DNA of 50,574 nt from Chitinophagales bacterium (GTDB taxonomy: Bacteria; Bacteroidota; Bacteroidia; Chitinophagales; UBA2359). The stretch is taken from contig JAEUUX010000042.1 in NCBI GenBank assembly GCA_016787295.1, positions 1-50,574 of the forward strand, read 5' to 3'. The notes below the pieces were generated by a model. That model was not told the origin of the DNA and did not search any database. It saw only the letters and a list, made by a program, of their open reading frames with translations. The position numbers and the translations under genes are program-made. Position 1 is the first letter of the stretch. Every line of letters starts with the position of its first letter. Positions 42,819 to 46,942 of the stretch are shown piece by piece.

Positions 42819-43730
42819 ATGCCACCCAAAAACCCATTCCATACCTTATATTATACCTTATTCATTGTCCTTTGTTTTTGGGCAATAAGTAGTCTACAAA
42901 GTTGCCATGACGATGACAGCCCTTGCAAAAACAGCACTTGTCCGCCGCACTCCCAATGTGTTGTTGATGTAGCGGGCAATGCGTCTTGTGCTTGTGATTT
43001 GGGCTATATCAAATCGGGTGACACCTGCAAATATGCGCCTTGTACCATTACTGACTGTTTTAATGGTGGTGTTTGTGAAGAAGACTCCCTCACACATGAG
43101 GCACACTGCCTTTGCCCCCCTGAATATATGGGCGAACATTGCGAAAAATTTAATCCTTGTTATGGTTTTCCTTGTGGTGAACATGGTGTTTGCGCTGTAG
43201 ATAGTTCGGGTCTGCCTTATTGCGACTGTGAGGAAGGCTATACAGGTGCCGACTGTCACCCCGACCCTTGCAGCAATATCATTTGCCCAAACAATGCAAG
43301 TTGCACCGATGGTATTTGTAACTGCCTTTTGGGATATACCAACGACCTCAACGGCGACAGCACACCCGACGGCGATACTTGTGTGCAAAAACGCGCCCGC
43401 TTAATTGGTAACTATATGGCAGTCCAAGCCTGCTCTTTTGCCGCCACACCAGCCGACTATTCCGTAACCATTACTCCTGACCCTGATAATGTACAAAAAA
43501 TCATCATAAACAATCTCCATAATGCAGGTAACGACTTTGAGGTAGAAGCATTTACAAGTACAACTATTTCATTCTATATACTCCAACAAAACTTTGCCAA
43601 CAATACCTATATCGCCACCACCAACAACGCTTTCATTAGCCTTTCTGACTCCACCATTACCATCTCCTACAAAATTATCACCTTGACCGACACCACCACT
43701 TGCGAAGGTCTACATTTGGTGCGCCAATAA
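42819..43730 (+). CDS. EGF-like repeat lipoprotein
   Basis: 303 residues. Hydrophobic leader with lipobox SSLQSC (Cys29). Residues about 35-190 carry four Cys-rich EGF-like modules, for example CPPHSQCVVDVAGNASCACD, CFNGGVCEED with CLCPPEYMGEHC, CGEHGVCAVD with CDCEEGYTGADC, and CPNNASCTDGICNCLLGYTN followed by DLNGDSTPDGDTC. The C-terminal ~105 residues are a beta-rich domain (RLIGNYMAVQACSF... TTCEGLHLVRQ) seen beside EGF modules in other Bacteroidota lipoproteins; its role is unknown. It is likely exposed on the outer membrane. hisS begins 21 bp later, so the transcript may run through. Confidence 0.82.
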   Translation: MPPKNPFHTLYYTLFIVLCFWAISSLQSCHDDDSPCKNSTCPPHSQCVVDVAGNASCACDLGYIKSGDTCKYAPCTITDCFNGGVCEEDSLTHEAHCLCPPEYMGEHCEKFNPCYGFPCGEHGVCAVDSSGLPYCDCEEGYTGADCHPDPCSNIICPNNASCTDGICNCLLGYTNDLNGDSTPDGDTCVQKRARLIGNYMAVQACSFAATPADYSVTITPDPDNVQKIIINNLHNAGNDFEVEAFTSTTISFYILQQNFANNTYIATTNNAFISLSDSTITISYKIITLTDTTTCEGLHLVRQ

Positions 43731-45151: not shown

Positions 45152-46288
45152 ATGAAAGAACTCATTAACACCATCATAGCAGGCGATTGTATCGAAAATC
45201 TACAACGACTGCCCGACAATTCCGTCGACCTTGTTTTTGCTGACCCACCTTATAATCTACAGCTCAATGGTGAATTGTATCGCCCCAACCAAACCAAAGT
45301 AGATGCGGTGAATGACCACTGGGACAAGTTCGAATCTTTGGCAAAATATGACGAATTTACACAGCAATGGCTCGCCGAATGCCACCGAATCCTCAAGCCA
45401 ACAGGTAGTATTTGGGTCATTGGCACCTACCACAATATTTTTCGTGTGGGAGCCATCATGCAAAATCTCGATTTTTGGTTGTTGAACGATATTATTTGGG
45501 TGAAAACCAACCCAATGCCCAATTTCAAAGGCACACGATTCAACAATGCTCACGAAACCTTGATTTGGGCAACCAAATCGCAAAACTCAAAATATACCTT
45601 CCACTATCACTCCCTCAAAACCATGAACGACGACCTGCAAATGCGCAGCGACTGGCTCATTCCGATATGTAGTGGCGAGGAACGCATAAAACACAATGGA
45701 CAAAAAGCACATAGTACCCAAAAACCCGCCGAATTGCTCTACCGCATTATCCTTTCTACTTCTAATGTGGGTGATTTGATTGTTGACCCTTTTTTTGGTA
45801 GCGGCACCACAGGCGCAGTTGCCAAAAAACTCAAACGCAATTTCATTGGCTTTGAGCGCGAACCTTTCTATATCGATGTTGCCACACGCCGCATAGCACA
45901 AGTAGTGCCGATTGACCGTTCTTTGTTGGAATATCGCATCGAAAAACGCCCTCCCAAAGTTCCTTTTGGAGCGTTGGTCGAAAAAGGAATGGTCAAAATT
46001 GGAGAAATGTTGTACTCCAAAGACCAAAAATTTTCGGCACAAATCCAAGCCAATGCAAGTTTGCTTTCGGGTGACAAGGTAGGGTCAATACACAAAGTTA
46101 GCGCAGCATTATTAGGCAAAGAAAACAACAACGGTTGGGCATTTTGGTATGTCTGGCGCGACGAAAAAATGGTATGTATCGATGACTTGCGCTATCAATA
46201 CGAAAAACAATTTTTGCCCGCCAACCCAACTACTCTTTTGGCAGCAGAAACTTTAGTGCCTATTAGCGTCAACAGTTTTTTGGACTAA
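45152..46288 (+). CDS. CcrM-like adenine-N6 DNA methyltransferase (predicted GANTC)
   Basis: 378 residues, the size of CcrM (358). Beta-class order: motif IV DPPY at about 31-34 (LVFADPPYNLQLNG), the target region with NDHWDKF, WVIGTYHNIFRVG, IIWVKTNPMPNFKGTRF and HETLIWATKS, then motif X HSTQKPAELLYRII and motif I VDPFFGSGTTGAVAKKL. The C-terminal ~80 residues match the RAMA-type tail of CcrM: VEKGMVKIGEMLYSKDQKF, GDKVGSIHKVSAALLG, NNGWAFWYVW and CIDDLRYQYEKQFL. CcrM and M.HinfI methylate GANTC; specificity here is inferred from this similarity. A nuclease-like gene starts 12 bp later, so it may be part of a restriction-modification pair rather than an orphan regulator. Confidence 0.88.
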   Translation: MKELINTIIAGDCIENLQRLPDNSVDLVFADPPYNLQLNGELYRPNQTKVDAVNDHWDKFESLAKYDEFTQQWLAECHRILKPTGSIWVIGTYHNIFRVGAIMQNLDFWLLNDIIWVKTNPMPNFKGTRFNNAHETLIWATKSQNSKYTFHYHSLKTMNDDLQMRSDWLIPICSGEERIKHNGQKAHSTQKPAELLYRIILSTSNVGDLIVDPFFGSGTTGAVAKKLKRNFIGFEREPFYIDVATRRIAQVVPIDRSLLEYRIEKRPPKVPFGALVEKGMVKIGEMLYSKDQKFSAQIQANASLLSGDKVGSIHKVSAALLGKENNNGWAFWYVWRDEKMVCIDDLRYQYEKQFLPANPTTLLAAETLVPISVNSFLD

Positions 46289-46300
46289 TTTTATTTTTTT

Positions 46301-46942
46301 ATGACCTATACACACATCAACAACTATGTCTATGACTGTGCGCTTTGTCCTACGCGTTGTGACGGAAAAACTGTTGCTCAATTTGATTTTGAGCGCGATG
46401 TGCGGTTTTCCGAAGCCATCGAAAACCACGTCATTCAACATATCAACCAACAATATCCCCACCTCATTGCCACAAAAACTACCTGCGAAGGTTATCCCGA
46501 CATCGAAATAGCCTATCGCCATAGCCCCCAAACCAGCATCGCTTTTGTGGAAATCAAAGGACAAGCTCGTACTTTTATGGCAGTAGCCCGCCTACTACCA
46601 GACAGCGGCTTGCGCCCCTCCGAAACCATTGCTTTGAATTTAAGTGATTTGGAGCGCTATTTCCGAGTCAATGAACAAGAACAAAAACCGCTATATCTTG
46701 TATGGTGTTTGTTGCGTCGTCCTTGTATTGTTGGCATTGGCAACAAGAGTCACTTGTTTTTCTACCAAGATATTGCAGTTTTACAAAACATCAGAGAAAA
46801 GGACAGCGCTAACCATCGGCGCTTTCGGCGCGAATCGGGCAAAGGCGACGTGGTCAATGGTGTTCATAAAGGCGTTACGGTCAATTACCATTTCAGTTTG
46901 CAAGAGCTTTGTGAAGGCTTGCCCAATTTATCAAAGCTATAA
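46301..46942 (+). CDS. PD-(D/E)XK-like nuclease, possible restriction partner of the methyltransferase
   Basis: 213 residues; family not recognised by name. A PD-(D/E)XK core is visible: a helix with Glu (SEAIENHVIQHINQQYP), then CEGYPDIEIAYRH with Asp67, and SIAFVEIKGQARTF with Glu84 and Lys86. Later YLVWCLLRRPCIVGI and a helix follow, the usual beta-alpha continuation. The N-terminus has CALCPTRC (Cys13, Cys16, Cys20), and Cys62 lies just before the core, so a zinc or iron-sulfur site is possible. It lies 12 bp after a CcrM-like methyltransferase in the same orientation, which fits a type II restriction enzyme or a linked repair nuclease. Activity and specificity are inference. Confidence 0.6.
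   Translation: MTYTHINNYVYDCALCPTRCDGKTVAQFDFERDVRFSEAIENHVIQHINQQYPHLIATKTTCEGYPDIEIAYRHSPQTSIAFVEIKGQARTFMAVARLLPDSGLRPSETIALNLSDLERYFRVNEQEQKPLYLVWCLLRRPCIVGIGNKSHLFFYQDIAVLQNIREKDSANHRRFRRESGKGDVVNGVHKGVTVNYHFSLQELCEGLPNLSKL

Follow-up and report, generated by a model that had tools for sequence, protein, structure and literature searches.

A conserved, predicted PD-(D/E)XK-type nuclease of an unnamed family that keeps company with CcrM-like methyltransferases

Genes and features at the locus

The window, that is, the whole stretch of 50,574 nucleotides analysed here, carries a small nuclease gene directly behind a gene for a CcrM-like DNA methyltransferase. The coordinates of the nuclease gene, the length of its product and its spacing of 12 bp from the methyltransferase stop codon (46286-46288) are exactly those given in an earlier description made from the sequence alone (the sequence-only reading). 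The following features were assigned.

45152..46288, + strand: CcrM-like N6-adenine DNA methyltransferase, 378 amino acids, probable GANTC specificity (Pfam N6_N4_Mtase, 4.7e-67)
45932..46213, + strand: RAMA domain of the methyltransferase, residues 261-354 (Pfam PF18755, 3.2e-15, over the cut-off)
46301..46942, + strand: predicted PD-(D/E)XK nuclease of an unnamed family, 213 amino acids (ORF; 13 homologues; fold from the model of a homologue)
46337..46360, + strand: Cys13-x2-Cys16-x3-Cys20, three ligands of a putative metal site (invariant in 13/13)
46499..46558, + strand: predicted nuclease core Asp67 ... Glu84-x-Lys86 (invariant in 13/13; model of homologue L005)
46724..46726, + strand: Cys142 of an RPC motif, putative fourth metal ligand (invariant in 13/13)
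46859..46894, + strand: residues 187-198, C-terminal signature GxHxGVxVNYHF; no other highly conserved stretch of the nuclease family is as long

Judged by sequence comparison, the nuclease ORF is a real gene and more than a chance reading frame, because homologues from other phyla share 40-51% identity and the gene is under constraint between the sister genomes G016 and G018 (dN/dS = 0.17). Its base composition (GC 45.0%, third-position GC 45.3%) is like that of the flanking HisRS gene (43.7% and 45.6%, respectively). No match to the window nuclease was obtained in Pfam, NCBIfam or PADLOC (E <= 1), and no sequence relative among solved structures (E <= 10); six rows returned from solved structures with the nuclease profile (best E 0.23) were chance-like and were rejected. 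Seven members of the family were scanned for weaker resemblance, and the matches, all sub-threshold, were to VRR_NUC (best E 0.022) and to a phage Holliday-junction resolvase family (best E 0.0053). Going by these libraries, the family is thus an unnamed one, as had been supposed.

Residues 6-350 of the methyltransferase match the solved CcrM structure 6pbd (E 1.1e-137), and together with the RAMA domain this amounts to full-length similarity to CcrM, the C-terminal domain included; the NCBIfam CcrM model is matched at 7.4e-171, but with 567.8 bits against an equivalog cut-off of 830. GANTC is the probable target, because of the full-length CcrM match, a HinfI-family enzyme beside the relative in genome G1001 (see below), and published Chloroflexi methylomes: in three Chloroflexi genomes 88-99% of GANTC sites carry the methyl mark, and for two of the three a GANTC-type methyltransferase is listed that belongs to no restriction-modification system (PMC6329791). 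In the comparison of seven reference proteins, six are methyltransferases; the seventh, L058:4373-5620, is a spurious reverse-strand ORF. A Cys-rich ORF with EGF-like domains lies elsewhere in the window (42819-43730; Pfam EGF, 4.8e-8; teneurin-type EGF, 9.2e-9; both over cut-off).

Distribution, conserved residues and fold of the nuclease

The nuclease family is represented by 13 homologues including that of the window, from the host family, Lachnospiraceae and Chloroflexota, so that 12 further genomes carry it. Two of these are of the host family (G016 and G018); homologues L004-L007 come from two Lachnospiraceae, one Anaerolineae and one Chloroflexales genome; the class of the Anaerolineae genome yielded three more carriers (4/298 in total, with the first one), and that of the Chloroflexales genome likewise three (credible total 4/158). 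A draw of Lachnospiraceae held the nuclease in 2/250 genomes, both known beforehand; of 395 genomes drawn from the host phylum, Bacteroidota to judge by the host's genes, only the window genome had the nuclease, apart from one match broken by stops (G275), and a draw of 400 genomes of the phylum Chloroflexota returned no new nuclease genome. The family is rare. G1027 gave a weak match over 56 positions (E 6.4e-4) that does not figure among the homologues; this genome, which has no methyltransferase match, is one of the 77 nuclease-negative genomes of the class of the Chloroflexales genome. Carriage by phages or plasmids was rejected, as plasmids, phages and viral contigs gave no nuclease match at the sensitivities used.

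Eleven residues are invariant in the 13 aligned proteins (Cys13, Cys16, Cys20, Cys142, Glu41, Gly64, Pro66, Asp67, Glu84, Lys86 and Gln88), as are most positions of the C-terminal signature. Asp67, Glu84 and Lys86, which the sequence-only reading had singled out as the nuclease core, are all present among them. Its cysteine cluster stands in part: Cys13, Cys16 and Cys20 are retained throughout, but Cys62 occurs in the window protein only (1/13) and was rejected as a metal ligand. The fourth invariant cysteine is Cys142, within the RPC motif that had been overlooked.

Structures were predicted from the same five sequences, with the window protein placed first and then with L005 placed first. 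The window-first model is poor (pLDDT 44.6); its first 24 Foldseek rows are by title restriction enzymes, resolvases and defence nucleases (best E 0.039), which we take to be all PD-(D/E)XK proteins. The L005-first model (pLDDT 75.6, pTM 0.77) gave 16 Foldseek matches at E <= 0.001, namely 14 Holliday-junction resolvase chains and two SPARDA chains, and has the core fold of the archaeal Hjc resolvases (VIA-align: 1gef, Z 12.0 over 113 residues, 2.7 A; 2wcw, Z 11.7 over 115 residues). Its elements follow the alpha-beta-beta-beta-alpha-beta order (helix 24-44; strands 48-51, 60-63 and 70-79; helix 105-117; strand 122-128), with Asp59 just before strand 60-63 and Glu75 and Lys77 in strand 70-79. 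An Asp before the second core strand and Glu-x-Lys in the third is, in this model, the usual PD-(D/E)XK site; the Asp and (E/D)-x-K residues of the superfamily were found in 13/13 sequences and on the core strands of the L005 model. Prediction thus returned the proposed core and not a fold lacking it. The N-terminal Cys segment is modelled with low confidence (residues 11-25 below 50), and the four-Cys site, putatively binding zinc or an iron-sulfur cluster, is therefore argued from conservation only.

The PD-(D/E)XK fold is known, as is the idea of a methylation-protected nuclease. In the libraries and literature searched we found no description of the sequence family, of its invariant four-Cys pattern or of its mostly unlinked CcrM-like company; none of the literature titles listed names the family, which does not prove its absence from print.

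Linkage and co-occurrence with the methyltransferase

A GANTC-type methyltransferase is encoded in 13/13 nuclease genomes (E <= 3.4e-97); homologues consistently without it, the finding that would have spoken against the sequence-only reading, did not occur. Every carrier accordingly has a candidate protecting methyltransferase, as expected of a Type II restriction-modification system in any arrangement. Base rates were taken from nuclease-negative genomes at E <= 1e-60: the methyltransferase is present in 0/17 of the host family (all 17 sampled), 5/30 of the Anaerolineae draw (30 of 294), 1/30 of the Lachnospiraceae draw (30 of 248) and 63/77 of the class of the Chloroflexales genome (77 of 154); G471 (no RAMA part), G999 and G1032 (both partial) were counted as positive. 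The stratified chance that all carriers have the methyltransferase is 6.6e-9, or 7.4e-6 with sister copies collapsed, deeper relatedness being ignored in both figures. Co-occurrence in the Chloroflexales class is uninformative (P 0.46), since the methyltransferase is near-core there. Within genus g12, both genes occur in G016 and G018, though not at the same locus, and neither occurs in G011, a genome 99% complete.

Placement beside the methyltransferase, the starting point of the sequence-only reading, holds for the window but not for the family, the two genes being on separate contigs in 10/13. Adjacent pairs were found in 2/13, in opposite gene orders: methyltransferase first in the window (12 bp), nuclease first in G452 (ATGA overlap). 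In the G1001 operon (L112:3863-6547) the methyltransferase comes first and the nuclease last, with one gene between them, for a HinfI-family restriction enzyme (NF045831, 284 bits, cut-off 175); a second CcrM-like methyltransferase is on another contig of this genome. In G450 and G473 no more than 300 bp separate the nuclease from a contig end, and a second linked copy is therefore possible there. An all-against-all comparison of the ORFs around the 13 nucleases, in which the near-identical gene orders of G016/G018 and of G509/G561 were set aside, showed that the loci share only the nuclease and the methyltransferase or its relative; such a relative is the RAMA-like fragment near the nuclease in G451. 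At L005:1739-1990 a stand-alone RAMA-like ORF of 83 amino acids adjoins the nuclease (Pfam 5.6e-8; 33.1 bits, below the cut-off of 35.2), perhaps what is left of a methyltransferase that was formerly linked. A polymerase-X-type gene (HHH_8, HHH_5, PHP; L047:6232-8605 and L048:4261-6629) precedes the nuclease by 14-16 bp in G016 and G018. In G453 it is flanked by two other N6_N4-type methyltransferase genes (L007:3972-7771), and the region looks like a defence cluster.

A tree of 40 of the methyltransferases found, some on long branches, largely follows host group, with Lachnospiraceae apart; in the nuclease tree Lachnospiraceae group with the host family. The trees disagree on Lachnospiraceae, and the two genes have therefore not always moved together.

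The HinfI family was found in 3/80 methyltransferase-positive genomes searched (G1001, G1010 and G1015; G999 and G1032 excluded from the count), one of them a nuclease carrier. G1010 has a CcrM-like methyltransferase with a HinfI-family enzyme (L119:216-2136), a second CcrM-like methyltransferase on another contig (L120), and no nuclease found in the genome; in G1015 the HinfI-family gene beside the methyltransferase is apparently split into two matches (G1015:C131:3000-3784). Other neighbours of CcrM-like methyltransferases in nuclease-negative genomes include a directly adjoining AbiEii-type toxin gene in G480 (L060:5387-6058) and, directly after the methyltransferase in G468, a protein with Schlafen/AlbA_2 and RecG-C-terminal-like parts (L061:5189-6562).

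Proposed function and its alternatives

The reading that we favour, with little more than even confidence, is that of a restriction-type endonuclease against which the host is protected by GANTC methylation, from a linked or a resident enzyme; a restriction nuclease that relies on this methylation to spare its own genome would suit the finding that every nuclease genome, whatever the linkage, has a GANTC-type methyltransferase. The protein would be a metal-dependent PD-(D/E)XK DNA endonuclease whose four cysteines would bind zinc or an Fe-S cluster; it would cut DNA lacking GANTC methylation of the CcrM/HinfI type, and the CcrM-like methyltransferase would shield the host genome from it. The protecting enzyme would be encoded next door in the window and G452, and in most carriers it would be a solitary, resident one from elsewhere in the genome; the arrangement would be a separated Type II-like system. 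Several results count against restriction: separate contigs in 10/13, Holliday-junction resolvases as the nearest solved folds, the HinfI-type pair in G1001, for which a second nuclease is superfluous, the polymerase-X-type neighbour in G016 and G018, the disagreement of the two trees over Lachnospiraceae, and the lack of a GANTC depletion that could be ascribed to the nuclease.

Separated systems and solitary restriction endonucleases have been surveyed by Ershova et al. (2012; PMC3488263), and the present nuclease, unlinked from its presumed protecting methyltransferase, resembles them. There, CcrM-like GANTC orphans are named as possible protectors under which a restriction gene may enter a genome, and all Type II candidates are said to remain unproven. 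That survey began from restriction genes annotated in REBASE (PMC3488263), unlike the present family, which is nameless in the libraries searched and known from its sequence. If our reading is true, the nuclease and the CcrM-like enzyme that shields the host would be a concrete candidate pair for a separated Type II-like system of the sort put forward in 2012 (PMC3488263), and solitary CcrM-like methyltransferases may have an immune side. Tentatively, and with clear reservation, one may go further: an incoming four-Cys nuclease might use the resident CcrM-like GANTC mark to tell self from non-self, regulatory methylation then serving as an immune password without a dedicated restriction-modification cassette.

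Genome composition was of no help. Observed/expected ratios of GANTC are 0.82 in G000, 0.63 in G016 and 0.61 in G018; G011, without either gene, equals G016 (0.63). In G000 depletion is stronger for CTNAG and GTNAC than for GANTC. GANTC avoidance was therefore rejected as a footprint of the nuclease, there being no usable signal.

An alternative that we think unlikely is a repair or maintenance nuclease that reads the methylation state of GANTC, a MutH-like or Vsr-like companion of the methyltransferase with no part in defence; in the course of repair or replication such an enzyme might, with the same low likelihood, nick DNA whose GANTC sites are unmethylated or hemimethylated. It would explain co-occurrence regardless of linkage, and it draws on the resolvase-like fold, the constrained inheritance in G016/G018, the position directly downstream of a polymerase-X-type repair gene in these two genomes, which points to repair, and the nuclease as an extra gene behind the HinfI-type pair in G1001. 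Because that operon already has a HinfI-type enzyme, the nuclease there would be redundant or of other function; the G1001 operon and the polymerase-X-type neighbour leave room for an accessory or repair role. The patchy distribution of the nuclease suits defence better. MutL was searched for in 10 of the 13 nuclease genomes (G1001, G1002 and G1013 left out) and found in 9/10 (missed in G561). Its endonuclease motif is intact (DQHAAHE) in six of these nine, where no substitute for MutH is needed; the window genome, G016 and G018 have DQQAASE, without the His. These three are uninformative, because the His is also absent in 5/5 nuclease-free relatives of the same family (DQQ or DQK; DQQLASE in G011). 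A MutH analogue is thus not supported where MutL is informative. Vsr-like repair deals with deaminated 5-methylcytosine, whereas the neighbouring methyltransferase modifies adenine; such repair was set aside on that ground.

It is improbable that the protein is a restriction nuclease whose target is longer than GANTC or another sequence altogether, so that GANTC methylation would protect only in part or by coincidence; the two other methyltransferase genes close to it in G453 and the lack of a GANTC signal in genome composition would suit such a target, but around the other 12 nucleases no relatives of the G453 pair were found, except CcrM-like enzymes distantly related to one of them. A junction- or structure-specific nuclease unrelated to methylation, brought together with the methyltransferase by shared ancestry or mobile islands, is very improbable in spite of the Hjc-like fold and the weak VRR_NUC and phage resolvase matches, given that co-occurrence persists with sister copies collapsed (7.4e-6) and that the two adjacent arrangements have opposite order.

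Among characterised systems, HinfI is one of those closest to the proposed restriction nuclease. The methyltransferase is of the same kind (CcrM/M.HinfI-type, GANTC), the nuclease adjoins it in some genomes, and both nucleases have a D...ExK-type site, that of HinfI having been read by eye. HpyAIV likewise has GANTC as its target. Scans of the window nuclease and three homologues gave no match to the HinfI family (NF045831) or the HpyAIV family (NF045832), and hhalign of the nuclease against two HinfI-family proteins gave a probability of 0.2%; homology to HinfI or HpyAIV was rejected on these grounds. If DNA unmethylated at GANTC is restricted, a further sequence family for that target would stand beside HinfI and HpyAIV, possibly with a metal cluster. 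Unlike the HinfI system, the present nuclease carries invariant cysteines and in most genomes lies apart from the methyltransferase, and both enzymes stand side by side in G1001. The adjacency of an ordinary Type II system is seen in the window and G452, with one gene between in G1001 and separate contigs in the other ten. Unlike the Hjc resolvases, the nuclease has its N-terminal Cys segment ahead of the aligned region, and no recombination gene is common to the nuclease neighbourhoods compared. The SPARDA complex contains a similar PD-(D/E)XK-type domain (9qcc and 9jt2; Z 8.7-10.2) in what is presumably its nuclease chain; in contrast to SPARDA, the present nuclease is small and stand-alone, and shares only the methyltransferase among the neighbours compared.
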